From Symbiodinium sp. CCMP2592 (taxonomy: Eukaryota; Sar; Dinophyceae; Suessiales; Symbiodiniaceae), in contig CAJNDT010005873.1 of the NCBI GenBank assembly GCA_905221615.1, positions 389,764 through 453,763 of the forward strand: 64,000 nucleotides of DNA. The letters run 5' to 3'. Below the pieces are notes generated by a model, which did no database searches, had not been told where the DNA came from, and saw only the letters and a list, made by a program, of their open reading frames with translations. Shown here piece by piece: positions 17,114 through 52,924 of this stretch (positions are counted from its first letter, which is position 1; every line of letters starts with the position of its first letter). Made by a program: the position numbers and the translations under genes.

Positions 17114-17172
17114 CTTATTTGCTGCCACGTAAATCGCTTGCAAATCTAAGCTCGTATATTTCATAATATGTT
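17114..17172 (-). mobile_element. Element Z, first piece (start of B2)
   Basis: 59 bp identical to 35407-35465, continuing at 25942 after element A. The join ATGTT + ATCAGC, seen uninterrupted at 35461, shows that element A inserted here without target duplication. Confidence 0.9.
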
Positions 17173-17356
17173 GTACCCAGGAGGCTCAAAACTTTCTTAA
17201 AACCCGGAGGGTTTAAGGAAAGGGTTTAAGGAACAGGGAACGACAGCAGTACGCCAGTACGCACAAGGAGACTTCGTTTTGGTCCGCACAGCCCGACATC
17301 ACACAGTGCAAATGAAACCTCCTGCATACAGGAGATGACGAGAGGGATTTGCCCCC
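17173..17356 (-). repeat. Element A split repeat B2
   Basis: Matches B1 (17870-18045) except for an 8-bp tandem gain (ACGCCAGT) near 17250. Its outer end is the left boundary of the element. Confidence 0.88.
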
Positions 17357-17420
17357 CCATCCAGATTGGGCTGTTATGAACAGACCATATGAGAAATAAT
17401 ATACAGGGTGGGCCGGGTGG
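17357..17420 (-). other. Element A bridge between B2 and A2, G-rich
   Basis: Sequence present only once in the element, ending in GGTGGGCCGGGTGGG directly against A2. Elements B, C, D and Z have a similar G-rich run at the same place. Confidence 0.6.
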
Positions 17421-17869
17421 GACACTAAAAGGACTAAAAGTCCCCTTCCGGTTGATCCAGAATGTATCGGCGCGATATATACCGTTGAACTGACAAGGGG
17501 CGAATAGCCCACAATCAAATGCCATAAAATCACTAACAACTGAAATGATGAATCAAAGAGTTGGAAAGTACCTCCTTTGAGGAGGAGAGTTAAAAGGTAA
17601 AACTTCTTCAAAATCATCCTCACATAAATGTTTCGCAAAAGGGAGAACTGAAATGAATCGCGTGAAAAGGAAACTGAAAACTGCAAGCAACTGACATGAC
17701 TGACATAACTGACATGACTGAGAGCAACTGCATGTAGGCCGTGGACCGAAGCCCGATGGCTGAGGCGTACAGAACTGAGAGTGGTCTCAAGCCCCCATTG
17801 TTCCCCCCCTCCCCCCCGGGCCTCCTTGGAACAAACTGTTTGGCCCGCTTCGCTACCCAAACTAGGCTT
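17421..17869 (-). repeat. Element A split repeat A2
   Basis: 449 bp, same length as A1 (25493-25941) at a constant 8072-bp offset, with few substitutions. It contains a GGACTAAAAGTCC hairpin near its inner end and a short TGACATGAC/TGACATAAC tandem patch around 17695-17727. Confidence 0.92.
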
Positions 17870-18045
17870 GTACCCAGGAGGCTCAAAACTTTCTTAAAAC
17901 CCGGAGGGTTTAAGGAAAGGGTTTAAGGAACAGGGAACGACAGCAGTACGCACAAGGAGACTTCGTTTTGGTCCGCACAGCCCGACATCACACAGTGCAA
18001 ATGAAACCTCCTGCATACAGGAGATGACGAGAGGGATTTGCCCCC
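17870..18045 (-). repeat. Element A split repeat B1
   Basis: 176 bp, directly abutting A2 and ending 28 bp from the pol stop codon. Confidence 0.88.
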
Positions 18046-18073
18046 TTTCGCAGACGAGGGCATCTCCTTTCCC

Positions 18074-21000
18074 TCATCCCCACTGACTTTTCTCGAATCT
18101 TATTCGAGGAGCTGAGGTTGTTCCATCATCCGCAATCGAGGCCTTGATGGAATCAAGTTCAGACTGAAAGCTCGCGAATCTCAAGAGAGACGGCAGAACT
18201 GATAAGGTCATATCTGACCAGCTGAAGGGCAGTCTCAAGTTTTCATCGAAGTCCTCGAAAACATGTTTGGTGATGCGGTCCGCCTCCTGATTGGAGTCCC
18301 TGGGCCTCCAGCTGAGATTGCATCTGAAACCCAGAGCGTCACAAAAGGTGACGAACTCCATCACCACAAACATGAGTGGCACTCGAGTCGTGAGCAGCTT
18401 GCAAGACAGCGCCTCGGCAGATTTATTATCAGTCCCGCCACAGAAGCTAGCACGGAAGTGTCCAGGGACTGACCAAAGATCCTTGAAATGGCGTCTCAAC
18501 AAGTGGAGCGCTGCCAACGATGCGAGAACCTCAGCGGAAGTGCTCGCCCACGAGCTGCCCGAATCCTTCTTGAAAAGCCAAGGAACTTCATCCCTGCCCA
18601 AGATGATCTGAAACCATGGTGCCTTCTTTGGGTCCGGTCCTTTGTGAAGAAACCATCCGCCCAGGACCACGGAAGTATCATTACAAGCTGCATCCGTGCG
18701 GAAAAGCTCCCCAACGTCCTTCTCAAGACGGCCTGACTCGTAAGTGCGAGCACCGTGCCTCAAGCGGTCAGCGATAAACCTCAAGACACAACGGATAAGG
18801 TTGGGTAGCGCGAGAACCGCTCCCTTCCGTACAGCAGCCAGCCAAGCGTAACCGGGAGCCAAGAAGGGTCTAATCCAGATCAAAACCTGGGACATGAAAC
18901 CGAGTCTCCCGTGAAGCTCATGAAATCGTCGGACATCAACAAGCCAGCCATTTCCCTCCATGGATTCGATGCCACTGATGATCCAATGGCACCTCTTCTC
19001 AGAAATTCCCAGCTTGAAGCGCCCATAATCAATCCAATAACCGACCCAATCAAGCTGCAATCCTCCACGCCATTTTCGTTCTGAAAAGGGGGTACCCTGG
19101 AGGCAAAGAAGCGCAAGGGACATCCAAAGATTGAGCCAGCGATCGGGCCCCCCACTGAGCACATGAAGATCATCAGCATAAATGAGCATGAAGAGGAATG
19201 CCTGAAGAAGAACTCTGAGGGAAAGCCTGCCCACAAGACCGATGATCCGCGCAAACCAATAAGCCGCTGAAGCAATTCCGAAAGTCCCGGTGCGATTGAC
19301 CCAGACCACAGAGGAATCGCTCCGAGTTCTGCAGGAGAGCACCCCCCAATGGTCGGGATGGTGCAAGTAGCGCCTGTGCGCCTTTTTCACGTCCCCCACA
19401 AGCCCGAAGAGGACTTTCTCATCAGACACGTTGCCCAGCTTTTGGATCGCGGACACTTCCCTAGCCCCTGGCGATTCAAGACGGTCCAGCATAACAATCT
19501 CATTGTTGACGTGGACCCCGTGGGTCCCATCATGGACCACACGAAAGTCTTGGTCAGGTTTCGGAATCACTGCCTGCGCTGCAATACGAAGTGCCGCCCC
19601 CGGATAGCGGGCCCAGGCCTCTGAAAGAGAAAGTGGGAACATACGGCCTTCTGCCTCTTCTTTTGCAAATGCCTCCTCAAGCGATTTTGCAACCTCAGGG
19701 CCGTCCCGATAATTATCCATCAGCGGTTGCCAGTCGGACTCATCGTATTTCTGATCCTTTCGACGAGCTCTGAAGACTTGAGGGACCGGCCCCAATGGCG
19801 CAGTGTGTCCGACCTCCACACCATTCACGAAGCAGAACTTGCCCTCCTCGATGATGCGGTAGTCGGGATCCTCCAAGATTTTTAGGGTCTGTGCCATTGC
19901 CCTCAAGTAGAATGGCTGATGAGGGATCAGCTCCCTTGCTCGTACAGGATCCGGCAGCATGCAGAACCAGTCCTCGCGAAGTTTGTCCATTGCCTCCGGA
20001 GCGAACAAGGGACCATTCCAATGCCCCGTCGCCAGACGAAAAGTCGCTTTTGCCAGATCAGGCACATTTTCAAGAACAAACTTTCGAACACGATCCTTAA
20101 GCTGTTGAGCGAAGGAAGTGGCGGCAGGAGACATGTGGCGCCCCCGGCAGATAGGTTTCCAACGCCCCGGCGAGCATCTACCGAAGCCGTCCACAAACTC
20201 GTCAGTCGCCCCTGCGAACTCGCCCACCAAGGGCGGTCCCTCACAGCCAGACTTCAGCTCACTATAAGGTAGGTCCTCAATCTCCTTCCCATCGTCACCA
20301 GCATCCCCTGCGGTCGTGGTCTCGCAGTGGCCCCGCTTTCGCTTTCCTGGCAGGTCGAATCCCAAGTCAAGTAAAGCATCCCGGTCCGATTCCACAAGCT
20401 GTCCGTCGTTCGCAATGGCGTACCCGGCCAGGACCAACCGACAACCTTCCCAGTCCTCCGTGGAATGCCAGACATGTGGATCGAAGGTAATCTTGCCGCC
20501 GTCCCAGTCCAGGATATGACCCGACAGCCAAGAACCATTTATGAAACGACGGACTGAACCGCCCTCCGACTGAACCCAGAGACCGCCACCCGAAAACCCT
20601 GAACAGGCCAGAAGCAGATTATCAAAAGGTCCATTCGTGGTGTCCCGGTGCGGCGGTTGCTTAAGATCACGAAAGAATGCTAAAGAAGTAAAGGATCGGC
20701 CAGGGAAGCCACACGAGAGCAGCTTGGCCAATAGCTCTGAAGACAAGGGAAAACTCCTCGTGTTGCGCCGGATGCCAACCTTGTCAGAGTGAACAAAGGC
20801 TCCTGCAGTGAACGATCGCTGACCTTCGACAACCTTAGAAGTCTGTCGAACTCTGTCTTCATCCGGCAGTAATTCAGAAATGCGCAGAAGTTGCCCGTGA
20901 GAAATTGTCCCATTCCTCAAGCATTCCGCAGCAAGTCGCTCCGCAGGGGAAGCGCCCGAGCCAGCCTCAACTTCCTTCGCTGGAAACTGAAAACATGGTT

Positions 21001-21856
21001 CCAGCAGCTGTGTAGGAGCCGATGCAGCCAGTGTTCCCCCCCCATCGAAGACGGAGAAACACCATTCAGCAATGGTTCTGCACAAATCGTCCGGGTAAGC
21101 TGCGGCCGCGGAAGTAGCGGCAGGCCCGAGCAGTTTTTGCTGATGTCGATGACCACAGTACTTCGGTAAAGGGCCGAGGTATCGATCTGAAGCGTCAAAC
21201 CGAGGCGGCCCAGTGAAGGGCATTCGAGAAGTAACCGGAATAGAAGACAGAAAACGTGTGGGCTTGGGCGAAAACGCCCCATATTGGCATTGGTATACTG
21301 CGAAAGTGATGACATTCTCATGCTTGAAGAGAGCAACGGCCTCCGGTAGCTGCCATATGGAAGCCGGAGCATGACCGTTGGTAGTGAGTCCCAAATCTTC
21401 AGGATGCTCAAGTAGAAAAGGTACTGAATTCGAAAGCGCATTTGTGCAGACCTCAAAAGCAAAAGAGACAAGCTGATTGCCATGTTCAACAAGAGCTCGG
21501 TGAGAATCAGATAGCCACGGAAAGCCCCGAGAATAAAGACGTGATCGCAGTGGCCGAGGACCCGGCTGCACACACCGAGCCCGCGAAAATGTCCCACAAG
21601 GTGGGGTCACCAAAACCACATCCCACTCAGAGTTCTTAACCTCCTGCAAGCATCGATCCGCGATGGCAGGATCCAAAAGGTCTAGTTTGGGATCGCGGCA
21701 GATGTCAATTTCAGACATTACCAAAGTGATACTCTGTGCCTTGCAAAGCGCCTCCAGGGAGCCACGAACATCCGATTTGCGAGTGGGACCTGAAAACAGA
21801 TACAACACGCGAAGCGTAGGACGTATCCCAGAAGTACCATCGCCAACTGAATTCAA
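18074..21856 (-). CDS. Element A pol: MTase-like / 2OG dioxygenase-like / RT / RNase H
   Basis: Uninterrupted 1260-residue polyprotein. (1) Residues 15-250: cytosine-C5 methyltransferase-like fold with LRVLYLFSG (SAM loop), VTPPCGTFSR (catalytic Cys87), FLLEHPEDLG (Glu150, ENV equivalent) and QYGAFSPKPTRF (motif VIII-like). (2) About 350-485: 2OG/Fe(II) dioxygenase-like core with PPHRDTT (H403, D405) and HSTEDWEGCRLVLAGY (H464, R473). (3) About 770-990: RT with VGDVKKAH (motif A) and IYADD (motif C). (4) About 1060-1210: RNase H with FRTDAACN and RPRDSNQEADR. All key residues of the dioxygenase and methyltransferase are present, so this copy could be active. Substrates are unknown; DNA bases are a natural guess. 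It follows gag with a 15-bp gap and has the most divergent RT of the intact elements. Confidence 0.88.
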   Translation of the reverse strand: MNSVGDGTSGIRPTLRVLYLFSGPTRKSDVRGSLEALCKAQSITLVMSEIDICRDPKLDLLDPAIADRCLQEVKNSEWDVVLVTPPCGTFSRARCVQPGPRPLRSRLYSRGFPWLSDSHRALVEHGNQLVSFAFEVCTNALSNSVPFLLEHPEDLGLTTNGHAPASIWQLPEAVALFKHENVITFAVYQCQYGAFSPKPTRFLSSIPVTSRMPFTGPPRFDASDRYLGPLPKYCGHRHQQKLLGPAATSAAAAYPDDLCRTIAEWCFSVFDGGGTLAASAPTQLLEPCFQFPAKEVEAGSGASPAERLAAECLRNGTISHGQLLRISELLPDEDRVRQTSKVVEGQRSFTAGAFVHSDKVGIRRNTRSFPLSSELLAKLLSCGFPGRSFTSLAFFRDLKQPPHRDTTNGPFDNLLLACSGFSGGGLWVQSEGGSVRRFINGSWLSGHILDWDGGKITFDPHVWHSTEDWEGCRLVLAGYAIANDGQLVESDRDALLDLGFDLPGKRKRGHCETTTAGDAGDDGKEIEDLPYSELKSGCEGPPLVGEFAGATDEFVDGFGRCSPGRWKPICRGRHMSPAATSFAQQLKDRVRKFVLENVPDLAKATFRLATGHWNGPLFAPEAMDKLREDWFCMLPDPVRARELIPHQPFYLRAMAQTLKILEDPDYRIIEEGKFCFVNGVEVGHTAPLGPVPQVFRARRKDQKYDESDWQPLMDNYRDGPEVAKSLEEAFAKEEAEGRMFPLSLSEAWARYPGAALRIAAQAVIPKPDQDFRVVHDGTHGVHVNNEIVMLDRLESPGAREVSAIQKLGNVSDEKVLFGLVGDVKKAHRRYLHHPDHWGVLSCRTRSDSSVVWVNRTGTFGIASAAYWFARIIGLVGRLSLRVLLQAFLFMLIYADDLHVLSGGPDRWLNLWMSLALLCLQGTPFSERKWRGGLQLDWVGYWIDYGRFKLGISEKRCHWIISGIESMEGNGWLVDVRRFHELHGRLGFMSQVLIWIRPFLAPGYAWLAAVRKGAVLALPNLIRCVLRFIADRLRHGARTYESGRLEKDVGELFRTDAACNDTSVVLGGWFLHKGPDPKKAPWFQIILGRDEVPWLFKKDSGSSWASTSAEVLASLAALHLLRRHFKDLWSVPGHFRASFCGGTDNKSAEALSCKLLTTRVPLMFVVMEFVTFCDALGFRCNLSWRPRDSNQEADRITKHVFEDFDENLRLPFSWSDMTLSVLPSLLRFASFQSELDSIKASIADDGTTSAPRIRFEKSQWG

Positions 21857-21871
21857 CGGACCACGGCGAAG

Positions 21872-23130
21872 TCAGGAGCCACCTTGCGCGCCGTGCTGAT
21901 ATGCTGGATGGTTGCCTTGGCAGCCCTTCACACGACATGCGTGAACGCGCTGGCAGCCTTTGACCTGACATCCCCGCTTGATGTTGTATGCATAACACAG
22001 CTCGCGACCATCCGGGGTCTTGGCCACCAAATCGTACCAGGACTCCCCGACCTGAATCTTGCCAGTGGACTTGCCCCCTTTGCCGTCCTTGCCACCTTTG
22101 CCGTCCTTGCCGCCCTTTTCCCCTTTGCCGTCCTTGCCTTTGCGGGGCCACTTTGGAGGGGGAGGATCATGAGCGGCCGAACGTTTTGACAAGGCGATCT
22201 GAGAGGTGAAGTGGAGCTCCTTGAGCTCGGTATTCCGAGTGGCCTCATACAACTTGTCACCGAGCGGGGTACCGTCGCGATGGGCCTCCTTGATAGCCCA
22301 CTTACGAAGCTCAAACTCGTACTGAAGCAAGACATTCCAAGGCACAGACAGTGCCTGTTTCTCCGCATGAGAAGAGCTTGCTGGAGCAGTGGAAGCCACT
22401 TGCATGCTGTAACACTTGTCACCCAACAGGAACTCAAGGAAACGATCAAAGTGTGACAGCTGCAGCCCCTGCAAATATGCACGACCGCGACACTTGGCTG
22501 AGAGCATGACCCAAGTGGAGGCCTCGAGGCGAAGCTTCGCCCGCAGCTCCTCCGTATTCTGCGGAAGTCGACCCTTTGGCTTCTGTCGCATGACCCGAAG
22601 CCGGCCCTGATTGTCCAAGGAAGTCTGAAGTTGCAGCGAGTTGGACTCTTTTCGAGAAATAACTTCATCAAGATAGCATTCTCAATCTGTTCAAGCTTGT
22701 GTGCCAAGTACTCAGGCGCCGGCTCCTCGGACTCCGGCACGGTGTAGCCGCGAACAGCTTCCAGGGCGACCCGCATGGCCGCGCGATCCGAAGAGGCGAG
22801 TGGCTTCTGAACACCCAAAACCTTAGCCTCAGCACGAAGCTTAGCCTCCTCCTCACGAATCATCTTGGAAGCTTCCCACGCAGTGATGATGCATGCCATC
22901 CTAGCTCGATCCGCCGCGCTCTCCGGCCTGATAGCGAAATCGGCTGTAATCGCAGTACGAGCTGCCCCACGATCATCAGCGAAAGCAGCAAAAGTGCGAA
23001 TGCTCTTGTAATGTTGACCGATAGCAAACTGAAGTGCAAGTTCGACCCCGTGTTCCTCAAGAAGGAACACAAAGTCTGCATCCACATTAGCCTGCAAGTA
23101 CGCCCGCTGCGCAGCTGGGTCCGCGGCCAT
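21872..23130 (-). pseudogene. Element A gag-like protein with CCCH finger (one frameshift)
   Basis: Nucleocapsid-type protein. The N-terminal half reads from 23130 (MAADPAAQR) to about 22.67 kb; the C-terminal half continues in another frame to 21872, so one frameshift is inferred after a conserved EN dipeptide. The C-terminal half has a Lys/Gly-rich basic tract (GKDGKGEKGGKDGKG) and a finger starting CYAYNIKRGC, with VHACRVKGCQGNHP at the end. This is the same CCCH-plus-C...C...H layout as in elements B, C and D, rather than the CCHC knuckle of LTR elements. Presumed to package element RNA. Whether the break is mutation or programmed frameshifting cannot be told from one copy. Confidence 0.72.
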
Positions 23131-23439
23131 GACGCTTCACTACCGCGGGTCTAAAATCAAGTCACCTAAAAGACTGACAGAATGCACTGAAGCTGAAGAC
23201 TGAAACCCCGAAGGGGAGCTGAAAGTGAAGCAAGCTTCGCAGATCTGAGAGTTGCCACATCGTGACACACATGTTCTGATATCTGATAAGGGAACCTTGA
23301 GCATACCGCCGGCATCCCACAGAATTTGCGCGAAGTTGCGCCAGAGCTGAAAGCACTCACGCATGGACTGATAGTGCACTGAAAGCTGCACGCAGAGCGC
23401 CCTCCCGTCTTTATTCACACACACTTCCAACGAGTTGCA
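23131..23439 (-). other. Element A region between YR and gag
   Basis: About 310 bp with no gene. It may hold the translation or splicing signal for gag; nothing recognised. Confidence 0.5.
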
Positions 23440-25461
23440 TCAAGTGTGAAAAGATGGGTCGCCCAACTCGAGCGGCTCTGCTGGCTCACCCAAGTCTGTG
23501 GAGGAAGACTCCCCCGAACTTGAAGATGAGCTCTCCTTATCACGATAGCACAATTTACAGAAACTGTCGGCCACCGAAGAATCAACCTTCCACACCTCAG
23601 CGAAGCGATGACAACTACCGGGAGTGACCCAGCAGCCATTCCGTATGTGCAGCCGCCTGTGCCCTGAGTGCCTGCTGATGCTCACCCAAAACGGAGACTC
23701 TCCAGAATCTTGTGAAGAGTTAGAAACCAACGGGGCCGGGGCAGCGTCGTCCGACCTTTCGGTGGCATCCTCAAGCAGCGGCCATCTCTGATTCAAAACC
23801 TTGCAACCATTCACGGTGCGCATCACGGCATGAAGCTTCAACCAAGGTTCAGGGTCCAGGCCTCTCTCCCGAAGCCAGGCCCTAAGCTCATCAAACAACT
23901 CTTCCTCATCATAGCCAGGCTTTCCGCCCGAGAGTTTGTCGCAAACCCGTTGCTGCAAGTCATGCACGATCTGGCGACATGTATGTATGTAATCAGCACT
24001 CTGGTGCAGACCGACATGCCACCTGCCAAGGTAATCTCTCTGCTCCTTCGGAACACCAAGCACCGCTGCAATTGTCGGCAAAACATGTCTCATACTGTGA
24101 CCTGTCCAGAAGAGATAGCACTCATCGCCCAGCAGCTTCCCCTCAGCCCTGGATCTCCAAACATCTTCACCGAGCTTCCTGAATGGAACCAAAAGCTGGC
24201 GCCAAATAAGACGCATGTAATTGCTAATGACCTCCGGCTTGGCGAATTTGTAAGACGGCTCCTCAAAATCTTCAGAAGACTGGAAAACCAAGAAAGTGCG
24301 ATCAAGCTGTCCCAAGCTTTTCCACAGGTCAAATCCAGTGCCCAACCAATCACGTCCTGATATCCCGACACACCTGCCTATAAAGAAAGGAACTTCGGCC
24401 ACCTTCTTATCAGGTCCTGTCGTCTTGGTCTTCACTAAAAAGCCCTTAAGCCCCTCACGAAAAAGCCTAAGGCGAGAAACGTCAATTCCTTGCAGATCAG
24501 AGACACGCATACAAGCCCATACGCAAACCAAGCAGGCCCACATCAGGCACCGAGCATAATGAGGGTTCGTACCAGTCACCACAAAAATTTCCAAAGATAA
24601 TAACATCGCCACCGAAAGGGGAGCCGCCTGCTTCCTGCTGGTTTTCCCCTCCTGCACTTCAGCCCCGGTGCTCTTTGAGGCCGCGACGACCAATCGGTTC
24701 TTGCACAGCTGATTTGTCAAAGGAACCTGTCCAGCATCCTCAATGACAGACAATGCGCTCATAAGCTCAGAAATGCAGCTCTTTGTACCCACCTCCTGCT
24801 CCAAGAAGATGAGGTAATCTACAACATCAGAAGGACTCTTCGGGAAAGGGTAACCTTTCACTGAAAGCATCCAGTCACGAGCCTTGCGCCAGGTCCTTGC
24901 ACGATTCCTGAGTGTCTTGGACCTCCGAGCCCCCAAGGCTCGGAGAGCATAAGAAACACGCTGCTCCTCATTCTCAACCGGAATGTCAACGATAGGAAGC
25001 TTTGCCTCCACCATGATCTGAACCAGGACAGTTCCCCAGAATTTCTTGGAAGATTTTTCTGCATCCGCCGGGGTCCCGGCGCCATTCGAAATCCATCTAG
25101 CATGTGCACGACTGGTCTGCTTGCAAAGATCAAGACTATTGCTCACGCACTGATCGAAGATATCACAAGGAGACACCGAATTTCCAGGGGTCGCTTCAAT
25201 TCGTGTGGCCTTCGCAGTAAGCCTGCTTTGCACCCGCTTGAAAAGACCTGTGTGAGCAGTCATCCACTCCCAGATCTGAGATCCCAACCGTTTGTGGTCC
25301 GAAGGAATCGAACTCGGAGTGATCTGCTCTGCCAATCGCACAGCGTCTTCAACACTGTCCACTGCGCATGCCAGGTGCCAAGGAGTCTGAAAGTGAATGC
25401 GAAGCAAACCCACAGCACTGCAGCCCTTCTCTTCAAGAAGGCCCCACAGCCTATCTTCCAT
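23440..25461 (-). CDS. Element A tyrosine recombinase
   Basis: 673-residue protein starting at the first ATG inside A1 (MEDRLWGLL); a longer frame to 25983 runs through the repeat into Z and is not credible. The C-terminal catalytic domain has the four expected parts: ACMRVSDLQ (Arg319), GHSMRHVLPTI (His455, Arg458), YLGRWHVG (Trp481/His482) and SADYIHT (Tyr491 nucleophile). This is the integrase of YR retrotransposons and would insert a circular copy by site-specific strand exchange. The tail has a Ser-rich acidic stretch plus a His/Cys cluster ending CKLCYRD. Unlike elements B-D it keeps HxxR. It is the first gene on the coding strand, which is unusual. Confidence 0.88.
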   Translation of the reverse strand: MEDRLWGLLEEKGCSAVGLLRIHFQTPWHLACAVDSVEDAVRLAEQITPSSIPSDHKRLGSQIWEWMTAHTGLFKRVQSRLTAKATRIEATPGNSVSPCDIFDQCVSNSLDLCKQTSRAHARWISNGAGTPADAEKSSKKFWGTVLVQIMVEAKLPIVDIPVENEEQRVSYALRALGARRSKTLRNRARTWRKARDWMLSVKGYPFPKSPSDVVDYLIFLEQEVGTKSCISELMSALSVIEDAGQVPLTNQLCKNRLVVAASKSTGAEVQEGKTSRKQAAPLSVAMLLSLEIFVVTGTNPHYARCLMWACLVCVWACMRVSDLQGIDVSRLRLFREGLKGFLVKTKTTGPDKKVAEVPFFIGRCVGISGRDWLGTGFDLWKSLGQLDRTFLVFQSSEDFEEPSYKFAKPEVISNYMRLIWRQLLVPFRKLGEDVWRSRAEGKLLGDECYLFWTGHSMRHVLPTIAAVLGVPKEQRDYLGRWHVGLHQSADYIHTCRQIVHDLQQRVCDKLSGGKPGYDEEELFDELRAWLRERGLDPEPWLKLHAVMRTVNGCKVLNQRWPLLEDATERSDDAAPAPLVSNSSQDSGESPFWVSISRHSGHRRLHIRNGCWVTPGSCHRFAEVWKVDSSVADSFCKLCYRDKESSSSSSGESSSTDLGEPAEPLELGDPSFHT

Positions 25462-25492
25462 TGCGCGAAGAAGCCTGAAAAGGCGCCCCCCA

Positions 25493-25941
25493 GACACTAA
25501 AAGGACTAAAAGTCCCCTTCCGGTTGATTCAGAATGTATCGGCGCGATATATATCGTTGAACTGACAAGGGGCGAATAGCCCACAATCAAATACCATAAA
25601 ATCACTAACAACTGAAATGATGAATCAAAGAGTTGGAAAGTACCTCCTTTGAGGAGGAGAGTTAAAAGGTAAAACTTCTTCAAAATCATCCTCACATAAA
25701 TGTTTCGCAAAAGGGAGAACTGAAATGAATCGCGTGAAAAGGAAACTGAAAACTGCAAGCAACTGACATGACTGACATAACTGACATGACTGAGAGCAAC
25801 TGCATGTAGGCCGTGGACCGAAGCCCGATGGCTGAGGCGTACAGAACTGAGAGTGGTCTCAAACCCCCATTGTTCCCCCCCTCCCCCCCGGGCCTCCTTG
25901 GAACAAACTGTTTGGTCCGCTTCGCTACCCAAACTAGGCTT
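25493..25941 (-). repeat. Element A split repeat A1
   Basis: 449-bp partner of 17421-17869. Lies immediately upstream of the YR gene on the coding strand and should hold the promoter. Its outer end GGCTT meets Z sequence ATCAGC. Confidence 0.92.
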
Positions 25942-26213
25942 ATCAGCAATATGATAACAAAAAGGTTCACTCATAAAATTCAAGATGATATATCTCGAAA
26001 GGAGGAAATATGAGAGATCGCACTTCGCACTCAGCCTCTTTTGCTCTCAATGGGGATGGTCCATCACTGCCGGCGGGAACGACGGCCTGGCGGTAGGCCC
26101 ACACACATCAACCATCCCAACCAACATGAAGCGAAAAGCTCAACTTCACGGGTGGGACAGGGCGGGATAAGAAAATTCAAGCTGGCGAGCCACAGCTGCG
26201 CATGCTGAGTTTT
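25942..26213 (-). mobile_element. Element Z, second piece (rest of B2, bridge, start of A2)
   Basis: 25942-26080 matches 35466-35604 and completes B2. About 90 bp of bridge follows, ending in GGGTGGGACAGGGCGGG, then the first ~45 bp of A2, which resumes at 35287 after element B. Confidence 0.85.
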
Positions 26214-27205: not shown

Positions 27206-30200
27206 TCAGAGCAGGTAGGCGTCAATCAAAGATTGGTCAACAAAGTAAGGCTCTACCTCTGCCGCACGAACGACCTTCTGCGCTTTCCAACCTTCGCCCC
27301 TGGAGGGCCAGTCGGCGATGTTCGAAGAGGATGGCACCCTCTCTATCCACGAGATGCAAGGGGCGACGGCCTCGACCATAGACAAGGCCAGGGCCAAGCG
27401 ATGCATCGCGTCACTTCTGCTTTGACCACGCAATACCACAGATCTAGCGGCATCGTTGTCAATGAAGAATATGATTCTCTTTCCTGAAAGAAAATTCTGA
27501 AGGCAGGCCCTGATCATCAAGAGGGCATACAGCTCTACCTCACAGATGATTTGCTCCCCGACCTCCTCTCGCCAGCGAACCACTAGGCGCTCAGGGACCT
27601 GTCCTTGGAAAACTCTGGAAACGCCGCTGCTCGCATCAAGAATCACTGCACCGATCCCGGCGAAGGCTTTGGCAGGCTCCCAAGCTCCATCAGTCCGCAC
27701 CAGGATAGGAGGCTCTCCGGTCGAATCGCAACTTATGCAGCGGGGCCTCGTGCTCACAAGAATTTTGATCGTGTGCTTGCACATCTCGCTGACGGTCTTT
27801 GGCGAAGGCCTGTCTCCAGCTAGAAAGCCAGATAGCCATTTGCACGAATGCTTGAGGGCACGACCGGCAAAGAAACCAGATGAAAAGTTGAGCAAGCCCA
27901 GCAAAATCTGAGCCTGATGAACCGTAAGGAAACCAGAAGCAGCCACAGATTCAAGCTTCTCCACGATCCGATCGATCCTGCCAGGTTTGTTCGAGAGGAC
28001 GATGCTTCTCTTCGACAAGTTGCTCAAGTCAATCTGCATTCCCAAGACGGAGAAAACCTCCGCGAAAGGATGTGATTTGCTGCCTGTCTTGGCGTGGCCC
28101 CAGCCCAGAATGTCTAAGAATTCGCTGATGATGCTATCAGTGTCACTGGAAGAAAGCGATGTCGAAAACATCGGGTAGTCATCAAAGTACACTGAGCTGG
28201 GCAGCTTGAATATCTTCAGCAGCAGTTTGTGAAGGCTTCTGCTCGTACGCACGAACCCATAAACCGAAGCAGTAAGACCGAAGAGCAGCGAATTTGCAAT
28301 GAAGAATTGATCCTCGCCAGAGGGGCCTTTGTGGTAGATCACAGCAAGAGAGCGGTGCTCCTTCTTCATTGGCATCTGCTTGTACGCCTTCGACAAGTCA
28401 AGGCACTTGCCCAACCACGACCGAGGGGGCTCGCCCGTGGCGCGTGATCTCTCGGCCTCTTCGATGGCAATCCTTGCTGCTAGAGCTGCAACGAAGTCGG
28501 AACTCTGGAGCTCCAACTTGATGGTGGCCGTAAAGCAGTTGTTGATCAAAGCCTCGTGCCCGTCATCAATGGGTCTAGGTTTGTTCTCGGCTCCTTGAAG
28601 GATTAGGAACCTTCGTATGCAGTTCCAATCGTCTGAGTGAAAGAAAGAAGACACTTGGCTTTCGGTGTAAGGGCCTTCCAGGAAACCCAGATCGACTTCG
28701 TCCATAGTAGCCTTCGACAGCAACTCTTGAAGGTCGGCTGCCTGCGTGCCACTGGATCCAATCATCACCTTTCGGCGGAACGAAGCAGTACCCTTTAGAT
28801 CCTGTTCCGACATGGTAGCCGGCACAATCTTTCGGTTGAAAGGCTGAGGGCAGGCTGACTGCCCTACAATCGGGACGCCTGACATCATGAAATCGCAAAC
28901 TTGCATGTCGTCAAAACCGTTCTGGTTCTGCTCAAGAAGATGCTTCCACAGAAGAAGACGCTTTCCCGCCACAACCTTTTCGAACCAAGGGTCGAACGAA
29001 GAATGTAATCGAGCCTCGTCGGCCTCGAACTTTTTGGCAAGGATCTTTATTTTCAAAAGTTGAAGCTTTCGATGATCGACCACCTCTTTCTCAGTGTTTT
29101 TCACGCAGAAGCTGGTTGCATCGAGCTGATCCTGGTCAAGGGCTACGGCAGTGTCGACGGGATGCTTTAGCGTCAAGGCCTTCGCAACATGATCCTGCAT
29201 TGACAAGTACCACCCCACCTTGACCGAGCCTTTGGGCGGATCGGAACTCTTAAGGAAACCAGAGGGGGGAACCTTGCTGGAAGCCTCATCCGAAACCCTA
29301 GGGAGCTTAGCAGGAGGGTATACCGCTTTATCACTAGCAACCCATCCGTCAGACACAGCTACATTGTCAACTGCATGGCTGTCTTCGGCTGCCTTCTCTC
29401 TCCCGCTATCCTTCCCAGCAACCTGAGAGAGAAGGACGCGACAAGAATCGTCAGGCTGGAAAGAGACCGGCTCCCACGTGACCTTGCGGAACTCAGGAAT
29501 CAAAGGAGGGAAGCGGCGATGCTGCCGACCAAGAACAGCAACGGAGCTGGCTGCCAAGTCAGGAGATGCTTGCAAAGACAAACCCATGAAAGAAGCCGCG
29601 CTCTCCAGACAGGAGGCCATACGCTTGCAAAGCAGAACTGGGTAAGCCGACCCAAGAGAAGATGACAGCTGCATAGAACGCTCATGGAACACGAGGCCCC
29701 ACGGGCGGTGTGTGTGATTGCCTGGGCAAGTAGCTCGAAGCGAGGTGAACAAGCCTCGAGTGCACAAGAAACGAGATGACTTCGGTCGATCGGAACCATG
29801 ACAACACTGGTCGAAATCAACGTATTCCAAGGCAGCGGGAGGCCAAAGCAAGCCCTCGGCCTCAGCAAAGCATTGAAGAACCTTCCAGAACAACGAAGTC
29901 CGAGGATTCTCAACGCTGACATTGATGCCCGAAGCAGAACAATGAAGGAGAAGCTTGTAGACGAAACGGTACAGGACGTTGTCTCTACGCACCGCAAGGC
30001 TCTGCTGAGACCCGGCACTCAATGACGGCAGACCTAACGGGAAGTCCTCGGACCGCAGAGGTTTAGGGGCCTTAGAGGCAAGGGCATGGTTCTTTGGCAG
30101 GGGGCGCTCGCGAGAGCGAGAAGCCGTGCCCGCAGGGGGCGATGCATGCATGTGAAAGGGAGGGCACTCCTTGATGAGATCCCAAAAGATTGCCTGTGCT

Positions 30201-31024
30201 GCATCTAAGGTCAGATCAAGCTTGGCTACGGGAGAGACTGCTCGGTAGCAAGAACTATCTAACCCTAAGACCCGAAAACCCAAATCCTTGCAAGCCTTGC
30301 TGAAACGGGCACTGCCAGCGAAAAGCTCGTAAACCCAGGAGTCTGATTTCACAGGCGGCTGTTCCTGGGCAGTCACAGGAATGGGAAAGGAGAGATCAGG
30401 CGGGGGCCTAAACCCGAGATTAAGCAGGGTCCTTGCTGACTCAGTTGAGATTTTCTCAAGGCTCGCGACAGTGAAGGCCACGCAAACCAATCGATCGCCA
30501 ACCCAGCTTTCAGTCTCGTGAGGGTATTTGAAGGCATCGAAAGTGACAGGGGACTCGAGGCTAAGCATTGAGCCTTTTACGATGTCACCTTTGATTGACC
30601 GTGTGTGAGGTCCGCATCCATCTGCAATCCAGATGCCACCTCCCTGAAAAGATGTCACGGCTATGACCCCGTTAGGGGTATGATGGTTCCTGGAATCAAC
30701 ATGCAAATCGGTTTTAGTGTTGTGAAACAGACTGATAGTCGTGAAGAAATGATCTGGCAAGAAAGTGCGAACAAAAGTGGTGAAGAGCTTGACGCAGAAT
30801 GGAAACAGCGCACATTCACTCCGAAGACCCTGTAATCCACCCTTTGCGTATGCCCCACAACTGAAACTGCTAGGAGGCTGCGAGGAGGCTCCTCTAGAAG
30901 GAATCTCCTTGGGCAAAAGATCGAAAATCTGAACAACATCTCGCTTAGTAATCCCTGACCCTCTGGCCAAAATGGCCTGCGCGAGGGCTTCAGCATCACT
31001 AGGGGCAGAGTCCGAAGTGGCCAC
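27206..31024 (-). CDS. Element B pol: 2OG dioxygenase-like / MTase-like / RT / RNase H
   Basis: Open 1272-residue polyprotein with the first two modules in the opposite order to element A. 2OG-like core at about 65-190: TDLHVDSRN (H108, D110) and HETESWVGDRLV (H169, R178), followed by LLNLGFRPP. MTase-like core at about 230-470: VYELFAGSARFSKAC (SAM loop), ASPPAGTASRSR (Ala298 where the catalytic Cys should be), NVSVENPRTS (ENP 372-374) and DQCCHGSDRPKSSRF. RT: RPIDDGHEALINN, CLDLSKAYKQM, LLFGLTASVYG and VYFDDYPMF. RNase H: VRTDGAWEP, CEVELYALL, FIDNDAARS, ERVPSSSNIADWPSR. The dioxygenase looks intact, while the MTase has lost its nucleophile and may only bind. Confidence 0.88.
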   Translation of the reverse strand: MATSDSAPSDAEALAQAILARGSGITKRDVVQIFDLLPKEIPSRGASSQPPSSFSCGAYAKGGLQGLRSECALFPFCVKLFTTFVRTFLPDHFFTTISLFHNTKTDLHVDSRNHHTPNGVIAVTSFQGGGIWIADGCGPHTRSIKGDIVKGSMLSLESPVTFDAFKYPHETESWVGDRLVCVAFTVASLEKISTESARTLLNLGFRPPPDLSFPIPVTAQEQPPVKSDSWVYELFAGSARFSKACKDLGFRVLGLDSSCYRAVSPVAKLDLTLDAAQAIFWDLIKECPPFHMHASPPAGTASRSRERPLPKNHALASKAPKPLRSEDFPLGLPSLSAGSQQSLAVRRDNVLYRFVYKLLLHCSASGINVSVENPRTSLFWKVLQCFAEAEGLLWPPAALEYVDFDQCCHGSDRPKSSRFLCTRGLFTSLRATCPGNHTHRPWGLVFHERSMQLSSSLGSAYPVLLCKRMASCLESAASFMGLSLQASPDLAASSVAVLGRQHRRFPPLIPEFRKVTWEPVSFQPDDSCRVLLSQVAGKDSGREKAAEDSHAVDNVAVSDGWVASDKAVYPPAKLPRVSDEASSKVPPSGFLKSSDPPKGSVKVGWYLSMQDHVAKALTLKHPVDTAVALDQDQLDATSFCVKNTEKEVVDHRKLQLLKIKILAKKFEADEARLHSSFDPWFEKVVAGKRLLLWKHLLEQNQNGFDDMQVCDFMMSGVPIVGQSACPQPFNRKIVPATMSEQDLKGTASFRRKVMIGSSGTQAADLQELLSKATMDEVDLGFLEGPYTESQVSSFFHSDDWNCIRRFLILQGAENKPRPIDDGHEALINNCFTATIKLELQSSDFVAALAARIAIEEAERSRATGEPPRSWLGKCLDLSKAYKQMPMKKEHRSLAVIYHKGPSGEDQFFIANSLLFGLTASVYGFVRTSRSLHKLLLKIFKLPSSVYFDDYPMFSTSLSSSDTDSIISEFLDILGWGHAKTGSKSHPFAEVFSVLGMQIDLSNLSKRSIVLSNKPGRIDRIVEKLESVAASGFLTVHQAQILLGLLNFSSGFFAGRALKHSCKWLSGFLAGDRPSPKTVSEMCKHTIKILVSTRPRCISCDSTGEPPILVRTDGAWEPAKAFAGIGAVILDASSGVSRVFQGQVPERLVVRWREEVGEQIICEVELYALLMIRACLQNFLSGKRIIFFIDNDAARSVVLRGQSRSDAMHRLALALSMVEAVAPCISWIERVPSSSNIADWPSRGEGWKAQKVVRAAEVEPYFVDQSLIDAYLL

Positions 31025-35406: not shown

Positions 35407-35604
35407 CTTATTTGCTGCCACGTAAATCGCTTGCAAATCTAAGCTCGTATATTTCATAATATGTTATCAGCAATATGATAACAAAAAGGTTCACTCATAA
35501 AATTCAAGATGATATATCTCGAAAAGAGGAAATATGAGAGATCGCACTTCGCACTCAGCCTCTTTTGCTTTCAATGGGGATGGTCCATCACTGCCGGCGG
35601 GAAC
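35407..35604 (-). repeat. Element Z split repeat B1
   Basis: 198 bp equal to 17114-17172 joined to 25942-26080, with only a few substitutions. Provides an empty-site reference for element A. Confidence 0.9.
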
Positions 35605-40184: not shown

Positions 40185-40194
40185 GAAAATTTTT

Positions 40195-40434: not shown

Positions 40435-40455
40435 CCCACAGGGCGGGCGGGCGGG
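40435..40455 (-). other. Element C bridge, G-rich
   Basis: 21-bp link between B2 and A2 containing GGGCGGGCGGGCGGG, the clearest case of the shared G-rich bridge. Confidence 0.7.
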
Positions 40456-40912: not shown

Positions 40913-43900
40913 TTAGGAAAGAGTTATAACTTGTTGCACAACATCCTGGTATATGGCATTGACTGAAGACGCATCAGCGACACGGTCCTGAGGAAGCATC
41001 TCACAAGCAATGTTGCGACTCGGTGCATCCGCAATATTGCTGCACGATGGTACACGCGCACACCAAGGAAGCAAGGTACCCTGCTCACAGGTTCTGGCAA
41101 AGATATGGCAAATGCGGGTGACAGCCCACGAAGCAGAGTAGCCCTTTATCAGAGCAAAGCGGGCCCCCTCGTTGTCAAGATATGCCATGCACTCTGAAGA
41201 CGCAAGGTGCTGGTTCCAAAGCACGAAGGCTACAACCACTGCAACGGTTTCCAACTCGCCGATACCCGTGATGGCATCCACTGGAAGCAAAGGGCGAATG
41301 TCGCTCTCGCACAAGGGCAAACCGAACCAGCTTACGACAGAACCCAAAGGAGAGATTAGGACACCCCCTAGACCCCCAGTGAAATCAGGCTCAAAGCTCG
41401 CATCGGTGAATACATACCAAGGCTGCCCCAAGGATTTTGTAATGCGCCTCGGCGACCCGTGCAATACACGATCCAGCAGAAAGCCGAGAGCATCCCGAGC
41501 GGGGCCGGATAGCTTGGGAACGAAAGGCCAGGCGTGAACATGGGAGCTGATGTGCTTAAGAGCGTAGTGCCCCGCTTTCCCCATGACCTGAGCGTTCGCA
41601 AAGGATAGCTTGCCTCTCAGCTCAAGACCTTCCTTATAAGACAACACACCTTCATCAAAAATGCGGGTCACCAATGCACGAATGTCGCCTTTGCGTTTGT
41701 CCGTGTTGTCGACAGTGACCACGCAGTCACCTGTGTTCCCCAAGTCAAAGCGAAGCCCCAGCGCAGACACTTGTCTGGAGAACACATCAGCTTTGGGTCC
41801 CTCCTCGTCGAAGACCCAGCCAAGGAGTTGGAACAGCAGCTCCATGGTCGCACCCGTGTTGTCAGCAAGGCAATCAGGCGAGGCGACGATGAAGTCATCG
41901 TAGTAAGAGGTGGTGGGCACAAGCAGGCAACGATTGGCAAGCCATTGGATGCACCTGGAACATCTAATGAAGCCATTCACTGAGGCCCTCGATCCGAAGG
42001 GGAGGCAGACCTGAGTAAAGAGCATGGTCTTTTGCTTGTGTGGGTCATACACAGCAATGACCGCAAAGCAACGCGAGCTCAAGGCGACACACAACTGGCG
42101 GTAGGCCGCCGTCAGGTCGAAGGCACGACCCTTGATCCATGAAGGTTTCTTCGCATCACGAAGCTTCGTGCACAACCTTACAAACATAGCTGCTGCCACA
42201 TCTGCAGTGTCGACGGTGGGCTGTTCCAAAGTCGTCACACAAGAGTTAACACCACTCCTGCTGTAATCATCAATGGGACGCAGCTTCCCACCCTGCAACA
42301 AAGGAAATCTGTGGGACACAACATGCCCCTGCGGCAAAGAGTCCCAATCGTAAGGACCCAGGAGCCAGCCTGAGTCTACCTCCTTCATTGTCTTTTCCCA
42401 CAACAAGATGTCCTTCTCCCGATCACCGGAAGATCCCAAGGAGACCTTGAGAGCCTCGTTGGCTCGAGGGGCCGTCGCACACAGGTCATCAGGGTGCAAG
42501 GAGGCTGGAGTAACCTTACCCGGCAGGACATTAGAAACAGGCGACGTGCCCACTAAGTCAAAGCCAGACCAAATATCCCGAGCAAGGTTTACATCGTCAT
42601 AGCCCTCGGCTGCGATGATTTCGTCAAGCAGCTGCAGCCGCTTCTTACACAGAACACGTCTCATGTGCGGGTCGTCTATGTCCCAAGAAGGGTCTGGGTC
42701 ACGTTCAATCTCACACGCACGCGAGGTCCACTTGTCGAGCCATCTCCTCCTCTTATCAACCACGGCATGCGGCGGAGCCTTCGCGAGCATATCCACACAC
42801 GACTCAAGATGATCCGGCAATGAAGAAAGTGAAGAGCTGGGATGGCCTGCCCTCACAGCAGCACGCACGAACTCACTTTCACTGAAAGGAACTCCAAAGG
42901 TTGCATGCGGAGTCGGCTGCGCAGGCCCGACCACAGGTGCAGTTTCCCCACTCTTGCACGGCTGATCAGGAGGGCGTGCCGGCACCGCACAGGCGTCCAG
43001 AGACGGTTGCACGGGACCGACCACCGGCACAGTTCCCCCAATCTTGCACTGGCGATCCTGAGGGCACATCGCTGTCGCACAAGTGACCGGCATAGGGTGG
43101 CCAGGCAACGGAAAGCCCAAGTCCTGTAGGACTTGCACATCCTCTTTCTTTAGAGAAGCAACACGATTCGGAGTGAATCCGATCAACACGACTCTGGAGC
43201 CTTCCCAAGGTAAAGTGCAGTGGAAGCGATGTGCATCGAACTCCACGGGGCCGTCGGCCACTTGCAGGACACGACCAGAAGTCTTTCCAAGGGGTGTGGT
43301 TCGCACATGCTGACCCTCCTCATCCTGTATCCAGATGCCCCCTTTTGCAAAGTCAGTCAAGGCCAACACATAGTTGGAACTCCCATCCAAGTTATTGGCA
43401 TCCCTATGCATCGGAGTGCACACATTGGAGTATATCGCCACTGTGGCGAACGTGGCATGCGGAAAGCGGGCACGCAGAAGCCTTACAGCTAATCGAACAG
43501 CGTTCGGAAACAGTTTGGTGTTCCTGCGCAGACCACACAAAGTGCCCTGGGAGTAGGCACCGGCAGACCAGGCCTTCTCACGCGCGTCACTGACACCCCT
43601 GGCCGGGACCTCGGGGGGTAACGTGTCAAAAACCTGCAACAGCTGCGCTTGCGTAGGAACGTCACACACGTCCGCCGCCAACACTTCGGCTTCGCTTGAC
43701 ACAGTCAACACTGCAGCACTGCTACAAGGATCGGAAAAAGCTAAACCAGAAGGAGAAGGCGAACCATCCACTAAACCCGAAGGGGAAGGAGGAACCGGCG
43801 GGGAAACCCTAGAGGAGGATGTCGCCATCGTGCCATCGGCCATTGCTGCAGCAGGAGAATCCCCGCCAGTGGCACACAATGTCTCGGAAGATTTGTCACC

Positions 43901-44839
43901 GCTGACTGGCACACTCGCCCCCTTTGAAGACACAGCAGCGGTGAGTGAGAGGGTTGGGAGCAGCTGAGCTCCAGCAGGCACGACCACATCGTGCACCCGC
44001 AGCGGCTGAGGAAGCCGGCGCTTGTTGTCCAAGGTCGGCAGCGCACTCAAGGGTACGCGAACGAAGTACTTGAACTCCGGAACCGGCGCAAGTAGAGGCT
44101 TGCGAGGCTGCTTACCAGTGCCAACCTGGGCTGCAAACAAAGGTGGCAGGCCTGAAGCATCGACATCAAGGTGCTTGATCATGACTAAAGCCAAAGCCCT
44201 GTACATGCGTCCCATAGCTGCATCCAAACTGGCTTTGGCCAGAGGCAACTGCAACACAGGCGGTGTAATGTCAGCCAAAGCGTGAGGGCAAGAAGATGCA
44301 AACAATATGTGACCGCGAACCCCTGGGGCGAAGCGGCCCAAGTCGACATCAACTGCAGAAGAAGAAACCTGAAGACCCAGCGAAGTCTTCCAGAAGGGCG
44401 AGCGGGATGGGGCCTCGATGGTCCACATGGTATCCGTATCAGCACAGTGCTTGATGAGCTGAGCAAAATTGTAAGTGCACCGTTCCACTTCACGCTGGAT
44501 ATCACTTGAATTCGAGAGCTTGTTAGAAAAGACGGAGGCAGGGCAGCGGATGTGAACCCAAGCACATGTGGGCTCACGAACCCACGATGCGCACAATGCA
44601 AAGCCTCCGGGGGACAAAATGTCAATGGGAACTACAGGCGCCGCAGAAGCTTGAGAGCACCCTCTGCCAATCGCAAAAGAGTTTGGTAACACCTTTCGGA
44701 GACAACCACACAAGCTGGCACGCCTAGCAAAAATTTCAATGCAGAAGATTCTATCACTCACACGTGGAGCAAGGTCCTTACCTGGCTTCGCAAAGTGCAC
44801 GGACGACCCCTGACACTCGGGCACTGCACACGCAATCAC
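40913..44839 (-). CDS. Element C pol: degenerate MTase-like / 2OG dioxygenase-like / RT / RNase H
   Basis: Open 1308-residue polyprotein. Residues 30-215 follow the MTase layout but with altered motifs: FCIEIFARRASLCGCLRK for the SAM loop, IRCPASVFSN for PPC (no Cys after Pro), TIEAPSRSPFWK for ENP and DVDLGRFAPGVRGHILF for motif VIII, so it is probably inactive. A Ser/Pro-rich linker follows (about 300-390). The 2OG-like core spans about 430-560: CTPMHRDANN (H478, D480) and FHCTLPWEGSRVVLIGF (H540, R549), then LQDLGFPLPG. A linker block FVRAAVRAGHP is shared with D and E. RT: RPIDDYSRSGVNSC, AFDLTAAYRQLC, LPFGSRASVNGF, TSYYDDFIV. RNase H: VFTDASFEP, GELETVAVV, AYLDNEGAR, ARVPSCSNIADAPSR. The dioxygenase is intact by motif. 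Confidence 0.88.
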   Translation of the reverse strand: MIACAVPECQGSSVHFAKPGKDLAPRVSDRIFCIEIFARRASLCGCLRKVLPNSFAIGRGCSQASAAPVVPIDILSPGGFALCASWVREPTCAWVHIRCPASVFSNKLSNSSDIQREVERCTYNFAQLIKHCADTDTMWTIEAPSRSPFWKTSLGLQVSSSAVDVDLGRFAPGVRGHILFASSCPHALADITPPVLQLPLAKASLDAAMGRMYRALALVMIKHLDVDASGLPPLFAAQVGTGKQPRKPLLAPVPEFKYFVRVPLSALPTLDNKRRLPQPLRVHDVVVPAGAQLLPTLSLTAAVSSKGASVPVSGDKSSETLCATGGDSPAAAMADGTMATSSSRVSPPVPPSPSGLVDGSPSPSGLAFSDPCSSAAVLTVSSEAEVLAADVCDVPTQAQLLQVFDTLPPEVPARGVSDAREKAWSAGAYSQGTLCGLRRNTKLFPNAVRLAVRLLRARFPHATFATVAIYSNVCTPMHRDANNLDGSSNYVLALTDFAKGGIWIQDEEGQHVRTTPLGKTSGRVLQVADGPVEFDAHRFHCTLPWEGSRVVLIGFTPNRVASLKKEDVQVLQDLGFPLPGHPMPVTCATAMCPQDRQCKIGGTVPVVGPVQPSLDACAVPARPPDQPCKSGETAPVVGPAQPTPHATFGVPFSESEFVRAAVRAGHPSSSLSSLPDHLESCVDMLAKAPPHAVVDKRRRWLDKWTSRACEIERDPDPSWDIDDPHMRRVLCKKRLQLLDEIIAAEGYDDVNLARDIWSGFDLVGTSPVSNVLPGKVTPASLHPDDLCATAPRANEALKVSLGSSGDREKDILLWEKTMKEVDSGWLLGPYDWDSLPQGHVVSHRFPLLQGGKLRPIDDYSRSGVNSCVTTLEQPTVDTADVAAAMFVRLCTKLRDAKKPSWIKGRAFDLTAAYRQLCVALSSRCFAVIAVYDPHKQKTMLFTQVCLPFGSRASVNGFIRCSRCIQWLANRCLLVPTTSYYDDFIVASPDCLADNTGATMELLFQLLGWVFDEEGPKADVFSRQVSALGLRFDLGNTGDCVVTVDNTDKRKGDIRALVTRIFDEGVLSYKEGLELRGKLSFANAQVMGKAGHYALKHISSHVHAWPFVPKLSGPARDALGFLLDRVLHGSPRRITKSLGQPWYVFTDASFEPDFTGGLGGVLISPLGSVVSWFGLPLCESDIRPLLPVDAITGIGELETVAVVVAFVLWNQHLASSECMAYLDNEGARFALIKGYSASWAVTRICHIFARTCEQGTLLPWCARVPSCSNIADAPSRNIACEMLPQDRVADASSVNAIYQDVVQQVITLS

Positions 44840-52862: not shown

Positions 52863-52924
52863 CCTGTGCAGGTACTGGCACAGTCATTGACAGCTGACGG
52901 CGGGTGATTTTGCTCTGGAGGTTG

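Follow-up and report, generated by a model that had tools for sequence, protein, structure and literature searches.

The window, that is, the whole stretch of 64,000 nucleotides of Symbiodinium sp. CCMP2592 DNA analysed here, harbours at positions 17171–25941, on the minus strand, a DIRS-like retrotransposon, hereafter called element A; its host is a dinoflagellate of the Symbiodiniaceae type, the type of alga that includes coral symbionts. Its features, and the target site lacking it, are as follows.

17171..25941, minus: element A, whole extent (split direct repeats and empty-site comparison)
25493..25941, minus: Repeat A, first copy, 449 bp (98.9% identity to 17421–17869)
23440..25983, minus: tyrosine-recombinase-like ORF, its ORF start lying upstream of the real start (R, K and H common to the ORFs of elements A–D)
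21872..23130, minus: gag-like region in two frames, 23130–21928 and 22618–21872 (ORF list and frame reading)
21872..21874, minus: TGA separating gag from pol, the frame being unchanged across it (also in elements B, C and D)
18074..21856, minus: pol ORF, listed at 1260 aa (its frame is open from 21871)
21023..21817, minus: putative C5-methyltransferase-like domain, residues 14–278 (profile alignment, Pfam and PDB comparisons)
20333..20854, minus: putative 2OG/Fe(II) dioxygenase-like domain, core residues 335–508 (profile, alignment, Pfam, HHalign)
18107..19786, minus: reverse transcriptase (RT) and RNase H, about residues 691–1250 (profile from elements A–D and two relatives)
17868..18045, minus: Repeat B, first copy (matches 17171–17356)
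17421..17869, minus: Repeat A, second copy (pairs with 25493..25941)
17171..17356, minus: Repeat B, second copy (pairs with 17868..18045)
35407..35604, plus: target-site copy without element A

Element A has the A-coding-B-A-B arrangement of split direct repeats, with repeat pairs of 449 bp and 186 bp, and its genes are ordered as the recombinase-like ORF, gag, and pol. The flanks of the element match the empty site at 35407–35604 over 59 of 59 bp and at 98.6% of 141 bp, and they overlap there by TT only; for element A, to which this comparison is confined, no target-site duplication was found. The split direct repeats, the absence of a target-site duplication, and the RT and RNase H in pol place element A in the DIRS-like class. 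The YADD and RNase H-like motifs of its pol were read by eye. The Pfam family RVT_1 matched 12 of 28 related sequences, and its lowest E value (3.7e-6) came from element B; the scan of element A itself gave no match to it. The PDB search with the whole-pol profile returned RNase HI only.

The recombinase-like ORFs of element A and of three further elements in the window (B, C, and D, listed below) share invariant R, K, and H residues, and a candidate Tyr was picked out by eye. The HxxR of this ORF reads HxxK in elements B, C, and D, the Tyr is spread over more than one alignment column, and the Pfam scans matched no recombinase family. The gag region of element A occupies two frames, as compared to the single reading in the relative P0006, and this copy may therefore be dead. 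In all four elements, gag and pol lie in one frame, separated by one TGA, and pol is probably made as a gag–pol fusion by readthrough of this codon. The ORF at 18074–21856, presented in the preliminary description as a retrotransposon polyprotein, is real and encodes 1260 amino acids, but on the minus strand, from 21856 down to 18074; the plus-strand reading is full of stops and was ruled out. The listed pol start, a TTG, is wrong, as the pol frame extends upstream to gag across the TGA.

What precedes the RT in pol? Residues 14–278 are predicted to form a very divergent C5-cytosine-methyltransferase-like domain. In its alignment, the PP dipeptide is present in 118 of 118 rows, the Cys of PPC in 115, and Glu150 in 114; the cysteine is gone in element B, P0022, and P0099. 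The PPC Cys and the motif VI Glu of the C5-cytosine methyltransferases are thus present, while no PF00145 (DNA_methylase) score reaches the cut-off. PF00145 is the sole Pfam family matched by four of the 13 methyltransferase domain rows (best E 0.028), and it was detected in only two of nine whole proteins, at 12.5 and 11.7 bits against a cut-off of 22. The domain of element A itself gave no match in Pfam, PF00145 included, or in NCBIfam. The PDB search with the methyltransferase-like domain yielded only three matches, all of them DNMT2.

The core residues 335–508 would likewise form a putative 2OG/Fe(II)-dioxygenase-like domain, probably a TET/JBP-like one. Its profile matched 46 proteins or frames, from which 43 rows were counted with element A standing in as the query; the four matches that are not rows are A's own frame, P0006 and element D's upstream half (both too short), and P0097 (E 0.0088). 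Within the HxDxxN motif, H403, D405, and N408 are each kept in 42 of the 43 rows, and the sole exception is element D's downstream half, whose domain a frameshift has split and whose HADRNN is found in the neighbouring frame. H464 and R473 are conserved in all 41 rows that reach them, the other two being gapped. The domain thereby has the HxD...H triad and the Arg for 2OG of the 2OG/Fe(II) dioxygenases. In a 17-row alignment (24–69% identity to A), 12 of 203 first-row positions are invariant and include all five motif residues, for which random choice gives p of about 3e-7 by hand calculation, active-site H, D, N, and R tending to stay anyway. The conservation of these motif residues is far beyond chance. 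C87, E150, H403, D405, H464, and R473, named in the preliminary description, were found at their places, and both motifs are kept across many relatives. This conservation supports its joining of a methyltransferase-like and a dioxygenase-like domain to RT–RNase H within a retrotransposon; the observation is confirmed, and the interpretation built on it is partly supported.

Tet_JBP (PF12851) was matched weakly by two of the 17 dioxygenase domain rows and by P0159 (best E 0.027), and the best score of 14.2 bits lies below the cut-off of 34.9; among the elements, element C is the best match. Of the methylase and dioxygenase families in Pfam, the scanned members touch DNA_methylase and Tet_JBP alone, weakly and always below the curated cut-offs. 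The Pfam comparison suggested earlier reaches these two families through other members, but the two domains of element A match no Pfam family, and its dioxygenase-like domain has no match in PHROGs. No dioxygenase was among the PDB matches of the dioxygenase profile. The invariant N that closes HxDxxN, three residues past the D, is a feature of TET enzymes. This motif, together with Pfam scans of the elements and relatives that give Tet_JBP and no AlkB-type family, argues against an AlkB-like demethylase that would strip the transcript or cDNA of the element of m6A, m1A, or 6mA. We consider such an enzyme somewhat unlikely, even though orchid Gypsy elements carry an AlkB domain shown by assay to demethylate m6A in RNA (PMC9289625, in excerpt) and 6mA has been reported in dinoflagellate DNA (PMC6680887, in excerpt).

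Weak links to phage proteins were also found. P0087 matches phrog_274 (E 0.0006), whose label, "DNA endonuclease V", was not accepted for this match, because the same stretch of a cyanophage protein annotated as a 2OG-Fe(II) oxygenase matches phrog_274 as well as phrog_61, a 2OG family. HHalign placed H, D, H, and R of the dioxygenase in register with those of this cyanophage protein, with a probability of 2.8%. The P0087 dioxygenase domain has four weak phage matches (E 0.8–0.9), some annotated as 2OG-Fe(II) oxygenases, and its methyltransferase domain has one unrelated phage match (E 0.8). As 2OG oxygenases are diverse and the cyanophage relative is named leprecan-like in one record, the domain might hydroxylate a protein, be it gag, RT, or some host factor, instead of a base. 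This seems decidedly improbable, since the domain has a methyltransferase-like one and RT as neighbours, and since Tet_JBP, not the prolyl hydroxylases, is what is touched in Pfam.

A viral or prokaryotic source was rejected on the basis of database searches. IMG/VR contained no relative of the methyltransferase profile or of the A and C pols, the bacterial and archaeal genomes contained no relative of A's pol in a search reaching close relatives only, and the phage proteins gave no match to A's methyltransferase domain or to P0159. When free-standing or host dioxygenase relatives were sought, 17 short proteins were found; of the eight examined, seven resemble fragments of these same elements, and the other, P0159, is divergent and retrieved only phosphatases from the PDB.

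Element A resembles the SymbioDIRS-Dnmt3 retrotransposons of dinoflagellates (de Mendoza et al. 2018, PMC5890265, in excerpt) in its host group, its A-coding-B-A-B plan, its pol methyltransferase with RT, its recombinase-like sequence in another ORF, and the occurrence of more than one domain order. The methyltransferases of dinoflagellate retroelements mentioned in the preliminary description are in print, but those are recognisable Dnmt3 or orphan DNMTs detected with PF00145, and the domain described here is far more divergent. Could element A be an ordinary, already described SymbioDIRS-Dnmt3, with a misread linker as its dioxygenase? The shared plan speaks for this, yet we regard it as highly improbable: the SymbioDIRS-Dnmt3 methyltransferases, which fall in Dnmt3, are recognised by PF00145, which finds nothing in element A, and conservation in the dioxygenase region exceeds that of the preceding linker in eight of nine relatives of A, the exception being P0016 (30% versus 44%). 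The excerpted text of PMC5890265 mentions no dioxygenase, AlkB, or TET.

The other three elements of the window carry the same putative modules in different arrangements.

27206..31024, minus: element B pol, in the order dioxygenase-like, methyltransferase-like (PPA, the Cys being lost), RT
40913..44839, minus: element C pol, with methyltransferase-like N-terminal remnant without PPC (by eye), dioxygenase-like, and RT
49278..52924, minus: element D pol region, with frameshift-split dioxygenase-like, methyltransferase-like with PPC (weak match), and RT

The A-coding-B-A-B plan recurs in B and C, and also in D, where it surrounds an insertion. The iron motif is kept by all four elements, split by the frameshift in D, while the methyltransferase cysteine is missing from B and C. 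The dioxygenase module has been exchanged between element lineages with its active site intact: the dioxygenase tree groups the lineages at 100/99, and the RT tree rejects that union (p-AU 4e-48). Most of the relatives retrieved lack the dioxygenase, 97 entries having the methyltransferase–RT arrangement. In the C lineage, the PPC-less N-terminal region is retained at 51–76% identity in seven of the eight relatives compared. Considering this lineage and the cysteine losses in B, P0022, and P0099, the putative methylating and oxidising activities are not always paired. The same two observations would suit domains of which one or both are now non-enzymatic and bind nucleic acid or act as a scaffold within pol; we judge this unlikely, as the iron and 2OG residues are invariant wherever rows reach them and nearly all methyltransferase-like rows retain the cysteine.

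Published examples already exist of DIRS elements with methyltransferases and of Gypsy elements with AlkB. DIRS elements with a Dam-like adenine methyltransferase share the DIRS plan and a DNA methyltransferase within the element (PMC5890265, in excerpt). The Dam-like protein is an adenine enzyme with a fold other than the C5 type. We know of no dioxygenase in those elements. The literature search found no dioxygenase in any DIRS element, and no methyltransferase–dioxygenase pair within one retrotransposon pol. Fungal TET/JBP genes are said (Iyer et al. 2014) to be associated with transposons, but these are DNA transposons, not retrotransposons. A dinoflagellate 5hmU-producing enzyme (Li et al. 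2024, by its title) reportedly ties base oxidation to transposable elements by silencing them. The orchid Ty3/Gypsy elements likewise unite a retrotransposon with a 2OG dioxygenase, but this is a recognisable AlkB (PF13532) in a separate ORF, with no methyltransferase reported in the excerpted text (PMC9289625).

The best reading, to which we assign roughly even chances, is that a DIRS-like element carries in its pol a methylating and oxidising pair that would modify the bases of its own nucleic acid. Pol would start with the divergent C5-cytosine-methyltransferase-like domain, followed by the TET/JBP-like dioxygenase, ahead of RT–RNase H, and the presumed gag–pol fusion would let both domains travel with RT. 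Their targets would be bases of the element's nucleic acid, chiefly freshly made cDNA still awaiting insertion by the recombinase. There, the first domain would transfer a methyl group to cytosine, and the second would oxidise 5-methylpyrimidines (5mC, thymine, or host-made hmU). As a result, the cDNA would resemble host DNA, or the host silencing mark would be spoiled. More tentatively, in a genome with hydroxymethyluracil-marked repeats, the element may edit its cDNA with a write-and-oxidise toolkit, passing as host DNA or over-oxidising the silencing mark, and elements may have passed the oxidising module among themselves as part of an arms race.

The pairing of methylation and oxidation could thus help element A to disguise its DNA or evade silencing. 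Base-modifying domains of transposons may escape annotation, since their scores fall under the Pfam cut-offs. Oxidised thymine is abundant in dinoflagellates, and in Breviolum most repeats show 5hmU enrichment (PMC11071213, in excerpt), so a transposon-borne oxidase would provide a cloneable starting point for finding what writes or removes these marks.

Element A, a DIRS-like retrotransposon of the minus strand, contains a 1260-residue pol open reading frame (ORF; 21856 to 18074). On that strand, it presents a first repeat A, a tyrosine-recombinase-like ORF, a gag-like region, pol, and then repeat B, repeat A and repeat B. This layout corresponds to the A-coding-B-A-B plan of the DIRS elements described in PMC5890265.

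Repeats of element A and further elements of the window
17171-25941, minus strand: element A, mobile element with the 1260-residue pol
25941-25493, minus strand: element A repeat A, first copy
18045-17868, minus strand: element A repeat B, first copy
17869-17421, minus strand: element A repeat A, second copy
17356-17171, minus strand: element A repeat B, second copy
27206-31024: element B pol, gene order as in A
40913-44839: element C pol, gene order as in A
49278-52924: element D pol, gene order as in A
61579 onward: element E, partial

The copies of repeat A are 98.9% identical across 449 bp, and elements B and C have their repeats arranged in this way as well. At 35407-35604 the target site occurs once more without the element; the flanks of element A overlap there by TT only, and there is therefore no target-site duplication. 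The tyrosine-recombinase-like ORF was assigned by eye from its motifs, with R, K and H common to four such ORFs, and a Pfam search of this ORF for a recombinase family found none. The named relatives retrieved by a protein search with element A are Symbiodinium proteins, which places the window in a dinoflagellate of Symbiodiniaceae type. A quick RT tree with several long branches has two deep groups and separates element A from B, C, D and E, which fall together in the second.

An apparent insertion of element C (40192-48935) lies within the terminal repeats of D (39785-39992 and 48929-57267). A 161-bp repeat pair (35746-35906 and 61423-61583), 100% identical at a distance of about 26 kb, is probably the pair of B repeats belonging to element E, between which further elements lie. 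By eye, a 1021-residue minus-strand ORF (36759-39824), without a Pfam match, resembles a Copia-like retroelement, and two minus-strand ORFs of 593 and 650 residues (57247-60850) resemble the integrase- and gag-like parts of a retroelement.

How is pol expressed? In each of the four divergent elements, A to D, pol follows gag in one shared frame, and a single stop codon, always TGA, separates the two.

The gag/pol TGA codons, minus strand
21872-21874: element A
31058-31060: element B
44861-44863: element C
52925-52927: element D

The first in-frame ATG past the TGA lies 51, 163, 144 and 95 codons further on in A, B, C and D, respectively, and hence pol is unlikely to start at the TTG that the ORF finder chose. 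As the simplest reading, this arrangement suggests that pol is made as a gag-pol fusion by TGA readthrough. The gag of element A is split over two frames, while that of the relative P0006 reads in one, which may point to a defective copy of element A or to an error in the assembly.

The methyltransferase-like (MT) domain spans residues 14-278. Its motifs, ordered by eye, are YLF(A/S)G, an acidic residue, PPC, EHPEDLG, QCxFG...KPTR and AYPxxLCxxIA, which we take to be the C5-methyltransferase motifs I, II, IV, VI, VIII and X. The preliminary description named the PPC cysteine and Glu150 as intact in element A. Among the 118 aligned rows, which include A but neither C, D nor some of the short matches, PP is present in 118, the cysteine in 115, Glu150 in 114 and the arginine of KPTR in 116. 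The cysteine is absent from element B, P0022 and P0099, and PPC is absent from the N-termini of element C and three relatives. The Pfam DNA_methylase family was matched by 4 of the 13 domain rows scanned (best E 0.028), although below threshold, and no other Pfam family was matched by these rows. Two of nine whole proteins also matched it across the PPC stretch (E 0.098 and 0.17). An NCBIfam scan of the domain gave no match. In the PDB, the MT profile matched nothing but three DNMT2 chains (E 0.014 to 0.017), with alignments that extend as far as PPC.

The dioxygenase-like (OG) domain has its core at residues 335-508. Its profile was matched by 46 proteins or frames, and in the 43 rows counted, H403, D405 and N408 are each kept in 42, and H464 and R473 in 41, with two gaps each. 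The sole mismatch is an element D fragment downstream of a frameshift; its HADRNN half sits in the adjacent frame, and thus the iron motif is kept by all of A to D. In Pfam, two of the 17 domain rows matched Tet_JBP, the best being element C (E 0.027), and so did the divergent relative P0159 (E 0.075), but the domain of element A itself had no Pfam match. By our arithmetic, HxD falls close to a single profile column (about 90) in the matched stretches of both element C and P0159. The domain scans also returned BDHCT and SUKH-4, and P0132, scanned whole, matched RVT_1 and Folate_carrier. P0087, the most distant row, links to phage 2OG oxygenases: it matched phrog_274 (E 0.0006; 1 of 17 rows in the PHROG scan), a family that is also matched, together with the 2OG family phrog_61, by a cyanophage protein annotated as 2OG-Fe(II) oxygenase. 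HHalign placed H, D, H and R of the OG family and that protein in register (p 0.016, but a probability of only 2.8%), and a PDB search with the OG profile found no dioxygenase. The predicted enzyme identities of both domains rest on motif invariance together with mutually consistent family matches below threshold.

Two cyanophage proteins (L001, 574-1095; L002, 577-1095) match PHROG families that carry the name DNA endonuclease. The same residues of L001, the one scanned, also match 2OG-Fe(II) oxygenase families, and the endonuclease names may be wrong.

The fetched proteins and window frames, a set with many partial entries and shaped by its queries (element A, the OG domain of element C and the OG alignment), comprise 97 MT-RT, 22 OG-RT, 19 OG, 17 MT-OG-RT (listed as 18, with element A twice), 4 RT, 3 MT, 3 MT-OG and 3 OG-MT-RT architectures. 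The queries with element A and the OG alignment scored only the 8000 candidates sharing most words. In several MT-RT relatives, DUF4326 occupies the OG slot, and the slot between MT and RT seems to take up accessory domains. DUF4326 (PF14216) was found between the MT-like domain and RT in P0082, P0087 and P0097 (E 5e-14 to 2e-16). On a 115-row RT tree, the dioxygenase requires seven changes of state. P0010 is 60% identical to element A in the OG domain, as compared to 37% in RT-RNase H and 40% in MT. The 40-row OG tree unites the A and P0010 groups (support 100/99), whereas this union is rejected by an RT tree built from 26 selected rows (p-AU 4e-48), for a grouping named after the anomaly had been noticed. 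We conclude that the OG module has been passed between element lineages, with its predicted active site kept.

TET/JBP genes reportedly occur with fungal DNA transposons. DNMTs are already known in dinoflagellate DIRS and LINE elements (PMC5890265), and AlkB in orchid Gypsy elements (PMC9289625). Neither a dioxygenase in a DIRS-like pol nor a methyltransferase together with a dioxygenase in one retrotransposon was found in the literature searched (titles, abstract beginnings and passages of individual papers, from a collection with few subscription journals and no bioRxiv preprints).

TGA readthrough would tether the MT and OG domains to RT. The cDNA of DIRS elements is made before insertion, and the study in PMC5890265 suggests that the pol-borne DNMT methylates it, perhaps to avoid recognition as foreign. 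An added oxidase could turn 5mC, thymine or host-made hmU of the cDNA into a further oxidised base. The OG domain is also found beside the Cys-less methyltransferase in B and C, and would thus seem to be useful in its own right. A dinoflagellate hmU enzyme is reportedly tied to the silencing of transposable elements, to go by the title of a 2024 paper. In Breviolum, most repeats other than some LINEs are enriched in 5hmU, which accompanies reduced accessibility (PMC11071213). An element-borne enzyme might either copy or undo this host hmU mark.
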